From contig DAOVMD010000083.1 in the NCBI GenBank assembly GCA_030630935.1, positions 1 to 9,552 on the forward strand: DNA of 9,552 bases, given 5' to 3'. The stretch comes from Candidatus Mcinerneyibacteriota bacterium. GTDB taxonomy: Bacteria > AUK180 > JAQVHJ01. The number at the start of each line of letters is the position of its first letter. Positions within the stretch are counted from its first letter, which is position 1. Shown here piece by piece: positions 2,859-9,552 of this stretch. The notes under the pieces are model-generated. The model was not told where the DNA came from. It saw nothing but the letters and a program-made list of their open reading frames with translations, and ran no database searches. The translations under genes were made by a program, and so were the position numbers.

Positions 2859-2954
2859 ATTATTATGTTCAAAGTTATAATTAATTAGTCAGTACTGGGA
2901 GAGGAAATATACACGTCCTTAGCCTTGAAGTATATTAAACCGGTACATTTTAAA

Positions 2955-3052
2955 TGCAGAGCGAAGCGATGCTATGTTCTCTTCCAGTCTCCCGATACGC
3001 TTCGCTATACGGGATCTCCTCTCTACGATCGTCGACCTGCTGAAGAAATATT
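2955..3052. repeat. Intergenic ~100-bp direct repeat, copy 1
   Basis: This copy begins with GAGCGAAGCGATGCT, then GTTCTCT and an imperfect inverted repeat CCCGATACGC / GCTATACGGG (2991-3013), then GATCTCCTCTCT and CGTCGACCTGCTGAAGAA. The same blocks in the same order recur at 3215-3325. It is more GC-rich than the surrounding DNA. It looks like a dispersed noncoding repeat of the host genome. Confidence 0.85.
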
Positions 3053-3127
3053 TCTTTATTTTTGTTTTTCTTTTCTTCTTTTGTTTTATATTTTTTTATC
3101 AAATGGGTGTTTTATTTCTTATGGTCA

Positions 3128-3147: not shown

Positions 3148-3214
3148 CTACTGCATTGTCATAAATAATGCAAAAGCATTCTTCACTATTCATTGTTAAT
3201 TATTCATTCTTAAT

Positions 3215-3325
3215 TGCTGAGCGAAGCGATGCTTTAAGTTCTCTTCAGTTCTCTTCAGTTCTCCCGATACGCTTCTCTATCGGGATCTCCTCTCTCCGTT
3301 CGTCGACCTGCTAAAGAATTATTTT
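3215..3325. repeat. Intergenic ~100-bp direct repeat, copy 2
   Basis: This second copy of the 2955-3052 repeat shares GAGCGAAGCGATGCT, GTTCTCTT, CTCCCGATACGCTTC, CGGGATCTCCTCTCT and CGTCGACCTGCT. It carries an extra tandem TTCTCTTCAG unit (3239-3258). Its central hairpin is a perfect 7-bp stem: CCCGATA (3263-3269) and TATCGGG (3278-3284) around an 8-base loop. Confidence 0.85.
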
Positions 3326-3492: not shown

Positions 3493-4383
3493 TTAGGTCC
3501 AAAATTCGTTTTCGTTATAATTCCATTGTTTCAATATTCCTTTCAGTGTAATATTATACATTGCATAGTATTCAAGCGCAAACGGAATGAATCCGAAGAA
3601 ACCGAGGATTGGCATTTCGAATATTTTAAACATTACAGGATATGGTATATCATAGTACCATTTAGTAATTGTCCAATAGTTCCAGAACTCCCATAGAAAG
3701 CCGCATATAACACCTGATATAATCAGTGAGATGAACCTTCCCGGTTTTCCATTCTCGAACGGTGTTAACCAATTCGGTGCACCCAGAAACTGGTTAACTG
3801 GTTCCAGCAGCATAAAGAACCCCATCCAGACCGCCGGAGCAGTCCAGAATGCGAGGTTAAATTCAATATTAAATAATCTCTTCAGGAGAAAGTTTCCGAA
3901 GAATGTTATCGTAATAAAAATCAAGCCAAAAAACATTGTCCAAATTTTATATCGAGTTGAATATTTATGTTTTTTTAATTTAATATCTTTAAAGAAATAT
4001 AGCTCAAGAACTTCTGCTGTGAACATCATTCCCGGGCCAATTGTTGCGAATGCCCAGAAGTACCCGAGCATTCTCATAAATAAATTTTCAGGCATTCCTA
4101 TATAAATCCAATTTTTCATGTAAAGATTATAGAACTCAAAAATGTACCAGAATATAATGCTCAGAACTCCAAACAAAATAAATAATCCGACCTTATTCAA
4201 CAGCATTGATCTTCCTTTCTTCTTAAAAATCAGGGCATCCATCATTAAGATATACCCTGTCCATTGAATAGGTGTGAAGTAGAGCGGGATTAACCAAACA
4301 TTCCGAAACATTAAAATCTGAGCGATTATAATTATTGCAAGTCCAATAAAGAAATGTACCGGAATTTTTCGTTTCAAATTCAA
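3493..4383 (-). CDS. Multi-pass membrane protein of two homologous halves, in the nrdDG operon
   Basis: I do not recognise this 296-residue protein with certainty. About eight hydrophobic segments are visible (roughly 10-27, 37-53, 64-84, 105-128, 147-166, 177-195, 216-236, 257-277). The halves repeat each other. P38-x2-W41-x-G43-x5-D49, E83-F-Y-N86, W92-x5-P98 and P117 correspond to P183-x2-W186-x-G188-x5-E194, E232-F-W-N235, W242-x5-P248 and P267. The pattern WEFWNY..KWYY..P...GFIPFALEYY faintly recalls CrtYc/CrtYd-type lycopene cyclases, also built from duplicated membrane modules; this is an inference only. The TTG start at 4383 overlaps the nrdG stop (TTGA), so translation is probably coupled. 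A second TTG at 4377 sits better behind the GGGGG ribosome site (4390-4386), eight bases away. No terminator is evident downstream. Confidence 0.8.
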   Translation of the reverse strand: MNLKRKIPVHFFIGLAIIIIAQILMFRNVWLIPLYFTPIQWTGYILMMDALIFKKKGRSMLLNKVGLFILFGVLSIIFWYIFEFYNLYMKNWIYIGMPENLFMRMLGYFWAFATIGPGMMFTAEVLELYFFKDIKLKKHKYSTRYKIWTMFFGLIFITITFFGNFLLKRLFNIEFNLAFWTAPAVWMGFFMLLEPVNQFLGAPNWLTPFENGKPGRFISLIISGVICGFLWEFWNYWTITKWYYDIPYPVMFKIFEMPILGFFGFIPFALEYYAMYNITLKGILKQWNYNENEFWT

Positions 4384-5069
4384 AACCCCCTGATCTTAAC
4401 ATTGTCGATTTTACTATCCAGGATTAATTTAAATTCTTTTAATTTTGACTGTGGGTATGGTTTTAATTCCTGGTACTCATCAGCAAAAGTTTTTTTATTT
4501 ATAAACTGCTGAAGCACAATTGTTTTTGCTGGTGCTAACCATTCCCTGATTCGGGTAATATCATCCTCATCTACTAAACCCGGGACCGAAGTGATTCTGA
4601 ATTCATATTTCTTAAATTGCTTTACAATCTCAATGCTTTGTGTGATTTTAGAAATATCAAAATCAACTCCAATCGCACGGGAATAATTTTCGCGGCTGGT
4701 TTTAATATCCATTGCAATAAAATCCAGATTACCCTCTTCAACTAAATCCCTGAGCAATTCGGGGTTACTGCCATTTGTATCTAATTTAACTTTGAATCCG
4801 AGGTGTTGGATTTGTTTTATAAAACCGGATAGATCTTTCTGAAGCAAAGGTTCTCCACCAGTGATCGAGACACCATCAAGTTTCCCTACCCGTTTATTGA
4901 GAAATGAGAAAATCTCTTTTTCCGGAATAAGCTCATCATTATTAAATGGGATAAGTTCGGGATTATGACAGAAAGGGCAGCGAAAATTACAGCCTTGAGT
5001 AAATATTACTGCTGCTAAGATACCTGGATAGTCAATTAAAGATATTGGCAGTAGGCCGGTTACCTTCAT
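4380..5069 (-). CDS. nrdG: Anaerobic ribonucleotide reductase activating protein (radical SAM)
   Basis: NrdG is an iron-sulfur radical-SAM enzyme. It cleaves S-adenosylmethionine and abstracts a hydrogen from a glycine of NrdD, forming the glycyl radical needed for anaerobic nucleotide reduction. In this 229-residue protein the cluster motif CX3CX2C is C27, C31 and C34 (CNFRCPFCHN). SAM-binding GGEPLL is at 71-76 and KLDTNG at 95-100. The N-terminal GLLPISLIDYPG and the length fit the longer NrdG variant (TIGR02495-like), rather than the ~155-residue E. coli form. It follows nrdD after five bases and overlaps the next gene by four, so it is the middle gene of an operon. I see no strong ribosome binding site before the ATG; coupling to nrdD translation is likely. 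Confidence 0.95.
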   Translation of the reverse strand: MKVTGLLPISLIDYPGILAAVIFTQGCNFRCPFCHNPELIPFNNDELIPEKEIFSFLNKRVGKLDGVSITGGEPLLQKDLSGFIKQIQHLGFKVKLDTNGSNPELLRDLVEEGNLDFIAMDIKTSRENYSRAIGVDFDISKITQSIEIVKQFKKYEFRITSVPGLVDEDDITRIREWLAPAKTIVLQQFINKKTFADEYQELKPYPQSKLKEFKLILDSKIDNVKIRGF

Positions 5070-5074
5070 TTACA

Positions 5075-7198
5075 TTAAGAAGCTTTGCTCTGGAGTAATT
5101 TAAATTGATAATATTTTCTATCTTTAAACTCTTCTTTCTTGCCCTTATTCCAATTCTTAACAGGTCTAAAATATCCAACAACTCTGGAATAGACTTCTGA
5201 CTCAACTCCACATTCCGGACAATTAAAATGTTCACCACGGATATATCCGTGATTTTTACAAATACTGAATGTTGGTGTAATTGTGTAATAAGGCAGGCTG
5301 TACTTACTTGCTATTTTCTTTACTAATGCTTTACAGGTATCCCCATCAGATAATGATTCACCAAGGAAAATATGAAGAACGGTTCCACCTGTATATTTTT
5401 TCTGAAGATCATCCTGATGGTCAAGTGCTTCAAATACATCGTTTGTATAATTAACCGGTAGAGCACTCGAATTGGTATAATAGGGTTCATCAGTTCCTGC
5501 TTGAATTATATCGGGATATTGGTTCTTATCAATCCGTGCAAGGCGATATGAGGTGCCTTCGGCAGGGGTAGCTTCAAGATTATAAATGTTCCCGGTCTCA
5601 GTCTGGAAATCCTGAATTTTATTTCTCATGAAATCTAAAACTTCAATGCCGAATGCCTTGCCTTCAACAGATGCAATACTGGTTTGCATAAAATTTAATA
5701 TGGATTCGTTCAAACCAACAAGACCAATTGTTGAAAAATGATTATCAAATGTTTTTAAATAGCGTTTGGAGTATGGCAATAAACCATTCTCAAGATTCTT
5801 ATCTACAACACTTCTTTTAATCTCAAGTGAGAACTTTGCAAGATCCATTAACTTTTCCAACCTCTCAAAATACTCAGGCTTGGTCTTTGAAAGATAACCT
5901 AACCTTGGCAGGTTAATTGTAACAACTCCAATTGACCCGGTTGATTCTCCTGCTCCAAATAACCCGCCCGTTTTATTCCGCAACTCGCGAAGGTCAAGCT
6001 GAAGCCTGCAGCACATTGACCTGACGTCGGATGGGTTTAAATCGGAATTAACAAAATTCTGGAAATAGGGAAGACCATATTTTGCAGTCATCTTAAATAG
6101 GATATTGGCATTCTCTGAGTCCCAATTAAAATTTTTCGTGATATTATACGTTGGAATAGGGAAAGTGAAAACCCTACCATTTACATCGCCTTCTTCCAGA
6201 ACCTGGAGAAAGGCACGATTGATGATATCCATCTCAGGCTGGAAATCAGAATATGTAACATCAAGACGTTTCCCTCCAAAAATAACATTATCATTTTTTA
6301 AATCATCCGGAACAACCCAGTCAAAAGTCAAGTTAGTAAAAGGAGTCTGCCCACCCCAGCGTGAAGTGATATTAAGGCCAAAAACAAACTGCTGTATTGA
6401 TTGCTTAACCGCTTCGTAAGAAAGATTATCAAAACGGATAAACGGTGCAAGGTACGTATCAAATGAAGAAAAAGCCATCGCCCCTGCCCATTCATTCTGG
6501 AGAGTTCCCAGGAAATTAACCATCTGCCCCAAAGCAGTTTCCAAATGTTTTGGCGGACCTGATTCAACCTTACCATCAACTCCATTAAAACCCTCTTCTA
6601 ATAACTGGCGAATTGACCAGCCTGCACAATAACCCGCAATCCCCATTGAAAGATCATGAATATGAAAATCTCCGGAAATATGTGAGTCGGCTATATCTGA
6701 AGGATAAATTGTACTTAATGTATAATGTGCTAATACCGAACCGGCTGAATGAAGCATCAAGCCCGATATTGAATAATCCGAATTGCTATTCTCATTAACC
6801 CGCCAATCTGATTGACCTAAATACCCATCGATAGTCTTATCAACTTCCATAATTACTTTACGAAGCTGGCGCATCTTAGAATGCTGGGCTCGATAAAGAA
6901 TAAATGCTTTAGCTGTCTTTGCAAAACCGTTGTCCATTAAAACCTGCTCCACTACATCTTGAACATTTTCAACTGTAGGGACCATGCCCTCTTCTTTAAA
7001 CGTAGCTTCTAATAACTCATTTACATCATTCGTAAATCTTAACGCAATCTTCTTGTTTCCTTCCCTAGTCGCTAAAAAAGATTTGTAAATCGCGCCAACT
7101 ATCTTGTTCTTCTTGAAACGGTCTATGGTGCCGTCGCGCTTTTGAATCTTGGTTAACTTCTTTGGCTTCTCAAAATTAATATTAAAATTGGTAAGCAT
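5075..7198 (-). CDS. nrdD: Anaerobic (class III) ribonucleoside-triphosphate reductase
   Basis: NrdD reduces ribonucleoside triphosphates to deoxynucleotides in the cytoplasm without oxygen, using a glycyl radical. The 707-residue protein is full length. An ATP-cone allosteric domain occupies ~15-107 (KRDGTIDRFKKNKI...). The catalytic barrel includes C191 in GYCAGWS, the likely thiyl-radical cysteine, and MCCRL with C396/C397. Other landmarks are GLNITSRWGGQTPFTNLTFDW (274-294), TGSIGVVTINLPRLGY (420-435) and EGTSYRLAR (547-555). C647, H650, C660 and C663 probably form the zinc site. The radical glycine is G675 in RVVGYFRP. GGAGGAGGAGG (7214-7204), five bases upstream, fixes the ATG start. 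It is first in an operon with nrdG. Whether formate or thioredoxin is the reductant cannot be settled from motifs here. Confidence 0.97.
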   Translation of the reverse strand: MLTNFNINFEKPKKLTKIQKRDGTIDRFKKNKIVGAIYKSFLATREGNKKIALRFTNDVNELLEATFKEEGMVPTVENVQDVVEQVLMDNGFAKTAKAFILYRAQHSKMRQLRKVIMEVDKTIDGYLGQSDWRVNENSNSDYSISGLMLHSAGSVLAHYTLSTIYPSDIADSHISGDFHIHDLSMGIAGYCAGWSIRQLLEEGFNGVDGKVESGPPKHLETALGQMVNFLGTLQNEWAGAMAFSSFDTYLAPFIRFDNLSYEAVKQSIQQFVFGLNITSRWGGQTPFTNLTFDWVVPDDLKNDNVIFGGKRLDVTYSDFQPEMDIINRAFLQVLEEGDVNGRVFTFPIPTYNITKNFNWDSENANILFKMTAKYGLPYFQNFVNSDLNPSDVRSMCCRLQLDLRELRNKTGGLFGAGESTGSIGVVTINLPRLGYLSKTKPEYFERLEKLMDLAKFSLEIKRSVVDKNLENGLLPYSKRYLKTFDNHFSTIGLVGLNESILNFMQTSIASVEGKAFGIEVLDFMRNKIQDFQTETGNIYNLEATPAEGTSYRLARIDKNQYPDIIQAGTDEPYYTNSSALPVNYTNDVFEALDHQDDLQKKYTGGTVLHIFLGESLSDGDTCKALVKKIASKYSLPYYTITPTFSICKNHGYIRGEHFNCPECGVESEVYSRVVGYFRPVKNWNKGKKEEFKDRKYYQFKLLQSKAS

Positions 7199-7548: not shown

Positions 7549-8484
7549 TTAATTTGAACTTGTTGTAATATGAAATCTGGGACCGGAAACGGTTTCGACT
7601 TGTTCAACTATATCATCAATACTTAATTCGATATCTTCAGATTCGTCTTCCTTAATTTCACCAAACTTCCTTAATAGCCTGACTAACCTGACATCGAGTG
7701 AGTGACCTGACTTATATGCTATTATATGACCTTTTACGGGGTATCCGCAGAGATATAGGTCACCAATTAAATCCAGGATTTTATGCCGGACAAATTCATC
7801 TTTATAGCGTAATCCATCATTTAAAATATCTGTATCCGTAAGAACAATTGCATTATCAAGTGACCCGCCTTTTGCCAGACCATTCTTTCGAAGGTAACTT
7901 ACTTCATCAAGAAAAGTAAATGTCCGGGCTTTACTAATATCATTTATGAAAGTTTTTTCATTTATCTCAAAAAAAGCAGTCTGTTTATTTAGAATTTCCC
8001 GGCCAAAATCAATTGTGTAATTTATCTTGAAATCATTTGAAGGCATAAAAATCAAATGTTTATCACCCTCATCAACTTCTGCAGGTTCTTCTAAAATTAA
8101 ATATTTTTTTATTTGATCCTGTTTCTCAATTCCAACTTTTAAAATCTTCTTTACAAACTCTAACGCACTGCCATCTAAAATCGGCATTTCAATGGAATTA
8201 ACTGAAATATATAAGTTATCTATTCCTAAACCACTCAATGCCGCCAGGAGATGTTCAACCGTAGATATCATACAGCCTTCTTTTCCTAAAGTTACTGCAT
8301 ACCTGGTATCAACTACATTTTCAACAATTGCCTTTATTGGAATACGTTTATTGTCCTTCTGATATAAAAAAACTATTCCCGTATCCGGCGGGGCAGGATG
8401 TAAAATCAATTGTGATAACTCCCCGCTATGGAGAGCGATACCTGTTATCTTGAGTTCGTCCTGTAGTGTTTTTTGAAATGCCAA
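7549..8484 (-). CDS. lpxC: UDP-3-O-acyl-N-acetylglucosamine deacetylase
   Basis: LpxC is the zinc-dependent deacetylase that catalyses the committed step of lipid A synthesis, acting in the cytoplasm on UDP-3-O-acyl-GlcNAc. The 311-residue protein has the family's two-domain duplication. Key residues are visible: STVEHLLAAL with E77 (catalytic) and zinc ligand H78, DGSA (104-107), KARTFTF (185-191), GLAKGG (202-207), and YKDEFVRHKILDLIGDL with H234 and D238 as further zinc ligands. H261 in SGHSLD is the likely catalytic base. It is not fused to FabZ, unlike the Bacteroidota form. The start is a TTG; AAGGA (8495-8491) about seven bases upstream supports it. An acidic tail segment (276-295) precedes the SGPRFHI end. 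It appears monocistronic: no other lpx gene is adjacent, and a terminator-like hairpin follows. Confidence 0.96.
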   Translation of the reverse strand: MAFQKTLQDELKITGIALHSGELSQLILHPAPPDTGIVFLYQKDNKRIPIKAIVENVVDTRYAVTLGKEGCMISTVEHLLAALSGLGIDNLYISVNSIEMPILDGSALEFVKKILKVGIEKQDQIKKYLILEEPAEVDEGDKHLIFMPSNDFKINYTIDFGREILNKQTAFFEINEKTFINDISKARTFTFLDEVSYLRKNGLAKGGSLDNAIVLTDTDILNDGLRYKDEFVRHKILDLIGDLYLCGYPVKGHIIAYKSGHSLDVRLVRLLRKFGEIKEDESEDIELSIDDIVEQVETVSGPRFHITTSSN

Positions 8485-8704
8485 AGTTCTTCCTTGTTTG
8501 TATAATATATGGCAAGTCTTATGCCAAATAAAACATATAACTAATATTATCTCAATATTTTACCAATATCTCGATACTTCCTAACCCTATAAACTAAAAG
8601 ACCGCTCTCCTTAATCCCAAATTACCCAAAAAACTGTGTTAATTGTTCACACTAATACTTGAAGAAATGGGGGTGAAGGGTGAAGTTTTCCAATATTTAG
8701 AGAC
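8485..8704. other. Spacer upstream of lpxC
   Basis: This 220-base spacer has no gene. A 5-bp inverted repeat, TGGCA (8510-8514) and TGCCA (8522-8526), lies just upstream of lpxC. The best promoter-like match, TTGGCA (8527-8522) and TATACA (8504-8499), would start transcription inside the ribosome binding site. The lpxC promoter is therefore unresolved. Confidence 0.5.
8628..8652 (-). terminator. Weak terminator-like hairpin after the exchanger gene
   Basis: On the minus strand, GTGT (8652-8649) pairs with ACAC (8639-8636), with two further A-T pairs inside after one mismatch. AG and six T's (8633-8628) follow. Position, about 50 bases past the exchanger stop, fits termination, but the stem is short. 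Confidence 0.3.
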
Positions 8705-9552
8705 TTACGGTGTGTCGATTATTCTAAAGTGGTAAATTAAGAATAAATAAATGATATAAATAATTAAAATTAAGATACTTTCAATGCTCACAGTTCGTTT
8801 ATGTTTTCTTTTATTCATGATCCCGAATGAAACGATTGAAGCCATTAAAACGAAGACTCCAATTGAGATGATATGAGAATAAGAGACATCGTGAAATAGC
8901 GGGTTTCTAAAGTAGAATATGTCAGAAATACAAATAATCAATAGGTTAAAGAGATTTGAGCCGAAGATATTTCCAATTGCCATATTTACAGAGTTTATTT
9001 TTCTAATAGCTTGAATTGAGACTACGAGTTCCGGCAGTGATGTTGCGAGTGCGAGGAACAGGCTTCCTACAAAAGTATGTCCAAGAATTAAACTTGAGTA
9101 TTTCAATTTAAGTTCAAACAGTGCGATTTTATCAGCTAATATAGACATAATAATTCCGAGGATTACAATCAGTGCTCCAAAGAAGATAAATCTAAATATA
9201 ACCGTTTGTTTACTCAGGTGCAGATATTTCTCTTCAACTGGTAAGGATTCTTCATCAAAACTCAAGTCTTTCATATAGAATTTGATTCCGGTGAAATACC
9301 CTATAAAGATCAAGATTGACGCTCCTGATATAAAGCCAACAGAAAGGTCCGGGTAGAAATTAATACCGAGGAAATTAACCGGTTTAACATTTGTAAAGAA
9401 GACTATTTGCAGTAGAATTATTCCTGTAATAACCAGGGATAATTTAATTGCTTTAATATAATTTTTATGTATTACATTAAATATGGAATTTCCAATAAAA
9501 ATCATTTCTATTACAAAAAGAATTGTCAGATTAAAAATATTACTCCCGATAA
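8705..9552 (-). CDS. Sodium/calcium exchanger-family membrane protein, N-terminus outside window
   Basis: This is a cation:cation antiporter of the Na+/Ca2+ exchanger family (YrbG/CaCA type), an inner-membrane protein that swaps Ca2+ or a similar cation for Na+ or H+. The family has two homologous alpha repeats with ion-coordinating residues. The frame stays open to the right edge: the 15 codons before the Met at 9505 read IGSNIFNLTILFVIE, the end of the first alpha repeat. So that Met is internal and the true start lies beyond 9552. Counting from that Met, the second alpha repeat spans 142-188: GHTFVGSLFLALATSLPEL with E159, and GNIFGSNLFN with G182-S183-N184. A hydrophilic loop with an acidic patch (80-98) separates the halves. 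The stop at 8707-8705 is intact. Ion specificity cannot be read from the sequence. Confidence 0.92.
   Translation of the reverse strand, partial: IGSNIFNLTILFVIEMIFIGNSIFNVIHKNYIKAIKLSLVITGIILLQIVFFTNVKPVNFLGINFYPDLSVGFISGASILIFIGYFTGIKFYMKDLSFDEESLPVEEKYLHLSKQTVIFRFIFFGALIVILGIIMSILADKIALFELKLKYSSLILGHTFVGSLFLALATSLPELVVSIQAIRKINSVNMAIGNIFGSNLFNLLIICISDIFYFRNPLFHDVSYSHIISIGVFVLMASIVSFGIMNKRKHKRTVSIESILILIIYIIYLFLIYHFRIIDTP

Follow-up and report, generated by a model that had tools for sequence, protein, structure and literature searches.

Among described systems, the closest points of reference for the protein studied here are the heterodimeric-type lycopene cyclases CrtYc/CrtYd (CarR/CrtYB N-domain; PF18916), which, like it, consist of tandem-duplicated membrane units, and on whose structure our literature search returned nothing useful. 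The CruF-like carotenoid synthesis protein (PF04240), representing a multi-TM isoprenoid enzyme family, was compared as a further candidate, and Insig with its mycobacterial homologue MvINS (4xu4) provides another small helical membrane bundle. Secondary transporters usually show duplicated TM units together with paired membrane acids, and alternating-access carriers commonly have inverted repeats.

The window, i.e. the whole stretch of DNA analyzed, is an entire contig (C329) of 9,552 nucleotides belonging to an 80% complete draft genome of a Candidatus Mcinerneyibacteriota bacterium. On its minus strand, a sodium/calcium-exchanger-like gene, lpxC, nrdD and nrdG are followed by an open reading frame of 296 codons, the relevant features being these:

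3493..4383, minus strand: ORF of a 296-aa, eight-TM, tandem-duplicated membrane protein (likelier start TTG at 4377)
4380..5069, minus strand: nrdG, anaerobic ribonucleotide reductase (RNR) activase of the NrdG2 type (TIGR02495, E 4.6e-67)
4386..4391, minus strand: AGGGGG, a putative Shine-Dalgarno-like element, followed after 2 nt by the TTG at 4383 and after 8 nt by the TTG at 4377
5075..7198, minus strand: nrdD, anaerobic RNR (PF13597, E 3.2e-194)

The ORF opens with a TTG whose overlap with the nrdG stop covers 4 nt (TTGA), and its third codon, at 4377, is also TTG. Because of its spacing from AGGGGG and its alignment with homologue starts (MK..P), the TTG at 4377 is the likelier start, in which case the gap to nrdG is 2 nt. 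The ORF is a genuine gene and, judged by spacing alone, is likely co-transcribed with nrdDG. The same contig carries two copies (2950-3062 and 3210-3324) of an intergenic repeat, some 110 bp long and bearing a CCCGATA..TATCGGG hairpin. For the draft genome as a whole 46 matches of 73-100% similarity are listed, which makes it an element dispersed throughout this genome. On the plus strand, 367-1356 and 1848-2825 encode two lipoproteins, paralogous and in tandem (MKK..FSGCF.VERNNP.DPD.DLP), that have a carboxypeptidase-regulatory-like domain; about 70 bp of upstream DNA were duplicated along with them.

The encoded protein belongs to an old family of bacterial proteins that is uncharacterised and has no curated name. 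A whole-genome search found the family in 9 of 98 genomes, and a profile search gave 18 strong matches in 337 genomes. One degenerate pattern detected at least 379 relatives in 84,980 GTDB species genomes, i.e. at least 379 places encoding a family with neither a curated family entry nor a close solved fold. These relatives, typically 36-45% identical to the window protein, occur in about 20 phyla, mostly of uncultivated bacteria, including Chloroflexota, Zixibacteria, Acidobacteriota, Planctomycetota, Latescibacterota, Krumholzibacteriota, KSB1, Calditrichota, Ignavibacteriota, Omnitrophota, WOR-3/Stahlbacteria and Rokubacteria. In the maximum-likelihood tree the Chloroflexota formed one supported clade, and the 20 phylum labels needed 25 changes (minimum possible 19), against a mean of 46 for shuffled labels; descent has therefore been largely vertical, with many losses, and horizontal transfer of some members is possible. 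Searches of Pfam, NCBIfam, PHROG and PADLOC returned no meaningful match for any member, and the family was found neither on viral contigs nor in a plasmid search, so that a phage or plasmid origin and, in view of the PADLOC result, a defence role were rejected. In one locus (L138; G051, contig C169, 40895-41005), a 77-codon frame matches the family over its final 35 residues alone (E 1.2e-7), possibly as a remnant or fragment.

The original prediction described an internally duplicated membrane protein, and this was borne out by the family profile and by the 4+4 TM model. The units concerned are the following:

4099..4290, minus strand: repeat unit 1, residues 32-95 (hhalign)
3652..3855, minus strand: repeat unit 2, residues 177-244 (hhalign)
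3991..4359, minus strand: half 1, predicted TM1-TM4, residues 9-131, with D49, E83, N86, W92-x-Y94, T114 and P117 (conservation and model)
3532..3957, minus strand: half 2, predicted TM5-TM8, residues 143-284, with E194, CG227-228, WEFWN231-235, W242-x-Y244, P247, MP257-258 and E271 (conservation and model)

Within the lone sequence the repeat is no more than suggestive, with a Smith-Waterman score of 61 that was reached in 45 of 2000 shuffles. Once the halves were matched as family profiles, hhalign paired residues 32-95 with 177-244 over 64 columns at a probability of 96.9 (P 1.4e-10), against 0.2 (P 0.27) for the reversed-half control, and a re-run with divergent members added to the profile gave P 2.1e-10. 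The paired residues are W41/W186, D49/[DE]194, E83/E232, N86/N235, W92/W242 and Y94/Y244; in addition, S59 pairs with position 204, which is S in 94 of 98 members and N in the window protein. Two of the three motifs initially read as common to both halves were found exactly as described, namely P38-x2-W41-x-G43-x5-D49 with P183-x2-W186-x-G188-x5-E194, and E83-F-Y-N86 with E232-F-W-N235. The third, W-x5-P-x18-P, occurs in both halves, but its spacing differs by one residue (W92-x5-P98-x18-P117 versus W242-x4-P247-x19-P267). Overall, an origin of the protein via tandem duplication of a four-helix unit is well supported.

The AlphaFold2 model, built on a 73-sequence alignment (pLDDT 93.5, pTM 0.90), places TM helices at residues 9-26, 36-56, 65-89 and 101-131 in half 1, and at 143-171, 182-199, 215-237 and 265-284 in half 2, the secondary-structure elements of the two halves corresponding one for one. 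Short strands are predicted at an equivalent place in each half, at 92-95 and 241-244; the C-half modelled alone likewise folds well (pLDDT 90.8, pTM 0.81) but lost strand 241-244, which suggests that the two strands would pair between halves. Five sequences in the alignment for the first model came from loci retrieved directly from genomes, and the second model drew solely on the window and its related loci. In all 98 aligned members the predicted inner loops contain more lysine and arginine than the outer ones (mean 16.5 inside versus 4.8 outside). This bias puts both termini in the cytoplasm and turns the acid/aromatic cluster outward; it follows that the halves have the same orientation and are not inverted. 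An eight-helix protein with both ends cytoplasmic (N-in/C-in) is thus well supported. A sequence search of solved structures found no relative, and Foldseek returned nothing at E <= 0.001 for the whole model or a half alone against solved structures, or against viral models, a coverage under which known families without a solved structure could still match by fold.

The acids noted at the outset at equivalent membrane positions proved strongly conserved: D49 and [DE]194 are kept in 95 and 97 of 98 members, and E83 and E232 in 97 and 98, respectively. S75, W79, W92, Y94, P117, E232, N235 and P247 are invariant (98/98), a residue set as strict as in many enzymes, and the most conserved positions comprise E83/E232, N86/N235, W79, W231, W92-x-Y94/W242-x-Y244, P247, M257-P258, E271 and T114. 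According to model and topology, they sit in TM3, TM7, TM4 and TM8, each time in the outward half, and in the short strands after TM3 and TM7, and D49/[DE]194 lie closer to the inner membrane side. The predicted cluster of E83, N86, W79, W92, Y94, E232, N235, W231, W242, Y244, P247, M257-P258 and E271 is accordingly placed by the model within the outer half of the membrane or immediately beyond it.

Sequence and model are tentatively read as an intramembrane enzyme, or a binder, whose pseudo-symmetric acid/aromatic pocket would accommodate a lipid or isoprenoid of the outer leaflet, a reading that we favour with less than even confidence. The two halves would pack about a pseudo-two-fold axis, as sequence and secondary structure suggest, and form a putative acid- and aromatic-lined pocket opening to the outer leaflet, which may bind, and probably would chemically modify, a hydrophobic lipid or isoprenoid. 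Such a combination of acids and aromatics would be suited to chemistry of the proton-driven or carbocation type, and the protein may act like membrane terpenoid cyclases or isomerases while standing outside any of those families. The bolder proposal of a new class of intramembrane enzymes, built on a duplicated four-helix unit with an outward acid/aromatic active site, acting on some lipid or isoprenoid that is common among uncultivated bacteria and possibly related by faint common descent to the lycopene cyclase repeat, is doubtful at present. For chemistry on lipids or isoprenoids there is no pointer from a substrate, a partner gene or a solved relative, and the scattered distribution with no constant neighbours indicates no pathway; for the invariant Trp, Glu and Asn residues, a transport or structural role could equally apply. 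Now that the family is delimited, with its topology and a small set of key residues, the protein is a testable one.

The main rival to the enzyme or binder reading is a transporter or channel, in which the repeated four-helix halves and their paired acids within the membrane would form a path for a cation or a small amphiphile. Rather unlikely on balance, it has in its favour the duplicated TM units and the paired acids D49/E194 and E83/E232, just the combination usual in secondary transporters. Set against this, no transporter family matched the protein, Foldseek gave no match at E <= 0.001 to solved transporters, conservation is concentrated toward one face, and the two four-helix halves share one orientation, unlike the inverted repeat of alternating-access carriers.

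A less probable alternative, which we regard as improbable, is a distant offshoot of the CrtYc/CrtYd lycopene cyclase fold, whose substrates would be carotenoids or other isoprenoids. PF18916 alignments were assembled from genomes and two constructions were compared with the C-half, giving P values of 0.002-0.009 and probabilities of 5-14%, a sub-threshold similarity given that an unrelated family, when reversed, attains P 0.011. PF18916 was still the best of the four families compared: one and the same stretch aligned at P 0.003 (probability 10.6) with its members and at P 0.0021 (probability 13.5) with a domain alignment made separately. In both, the register was constant, with W234-N235 on W-D, W242..Y244 on WxF/Y and MP258 on lP-x-E-E, and tandem duplication is common to the two families. 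The acids of these motifs, present in the PF18916 members aligned, are not conserved in the family: the WD acid is replaced by N235 in all 98 members, and P-x-E-E falls on P258-[LVI]-x-G261, with G261 in 96 of 98. The original suggestion of lycopene-cyclase-like motifs also found no support in direct searches, in which none of 73 members matched PF18916 and the window protein gave no PF18916 match at E <= 1. PF18916 was absent from all 18 holder genomes, and phytoene synthase (PF00494), encoded in 4 of 9 holder genomes versus 27 of 89 non-holders, was missing in the other five holders, one of them 99% complete. Membership of the lycopene cyclases, examined at the level of HMMs, profile pairs, motifs and co-occurrence in genomes, is not supported, and the family is probably not a carotenoid enzyme. 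The other three families compared, PF04240, ABC_trans_CmpB (PF06541) and YhhN (PF07947), all gave P >= 0.028 and as a set did no better than reversed controls; CruF-like PF04240 (P 0.18-0.38) fell below its own reversed control, and PF06541 and PF07947 were each represented by a shallow alignment of 4 sequences.

A lipid or sterol-like sensor of Insig type has a very slight probability. It was suggested by the structural second look with VIA-align, in which the best match of the whole protein was MvINS (4xu4; Z 5.5, 148 aligned residues, rmsd 4.1) and that of a half alone was Scap/Insig-2 (Z 3.3). Such Z scores are usual for unrelated helical bundles and too low for a claim of shared fold, no significant Foldseek match accompanied them, neither the window protein nor other members matched an Insig family, and the MvINS chain, with no sequence match, has 189 residues versus 296 here.

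Least credible, to a degree that makes it almost negligible, is a dedicated membrane partner of the anaerobic ribonucleotide reductase NrdDG. In its favour, this gene directly follows nrdG here (4-nt overlap or 2-nt gap). Against it, 88 homologue loci were compared (left flanks of 1.5 kb or more in 77 and right flanks of that length in 77) and just one has nrdDG in its flanks, about chance level; none of seven related-genome nrdD loci (L157-L163) has a homologue adjoining nrdD, and the conserved cluster points away from the cytoplasm. The operon partnership noted at first was not seen beyond the window, and a functional tie to anaerobic dNTP synthesis is not supported, nrdDG being away from the flanks of the other 87 loci and operonic with a homologue in none, and our literature search found no description of such a partner. 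In the single exception, locus L066 of Candidatus Scalindua sediminis, nrdDG lies 4 kb away on the opposite strand; by our estimate, about 0.3 such proximities would be expected by chance in 4-Mb genomes under random placement. Homologue, lpxC and nrdDG fall there within 16 kb (387-1259, 8001-8816 and 12845-16070) without being operonic, a proximity that is probably due to chance. The window's nearest kin (G001) keeps the order exchanger-lpxC-nrdD-nrdG on a contig that ends inside nrdG, so that the fourth position is not visible. The location behind nrdDG is a local operon arrangement without a general link, and this context is a poor guide for further work on the family.

Adjacent genes vary freely across the homologue loci, with no conserved neighbour of any kind beyond close kin. 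Four deltaproteobacterial-type loci (L018, L021, L022 and L029) have a DUF1848 protein and/or a DinG-like helicase next to the homologue, HAD hydrolases are its neighbours in Latescibacteria-type loci, and CutA is in KSB1/Calditrichota loci.

Set beside the CrtYc/CrtYd cyclases, the family differs in its want of an HMM match and of the WD and PxEE acids, and in not co-occurring with PF18916 or phytoene synthase, and its model has four TM helices per unit; what the two have in common is the construction from tandem-duplicated membrane units and a weak likeness in the constant register W-[DN] ... W-x-[YF] ... P.
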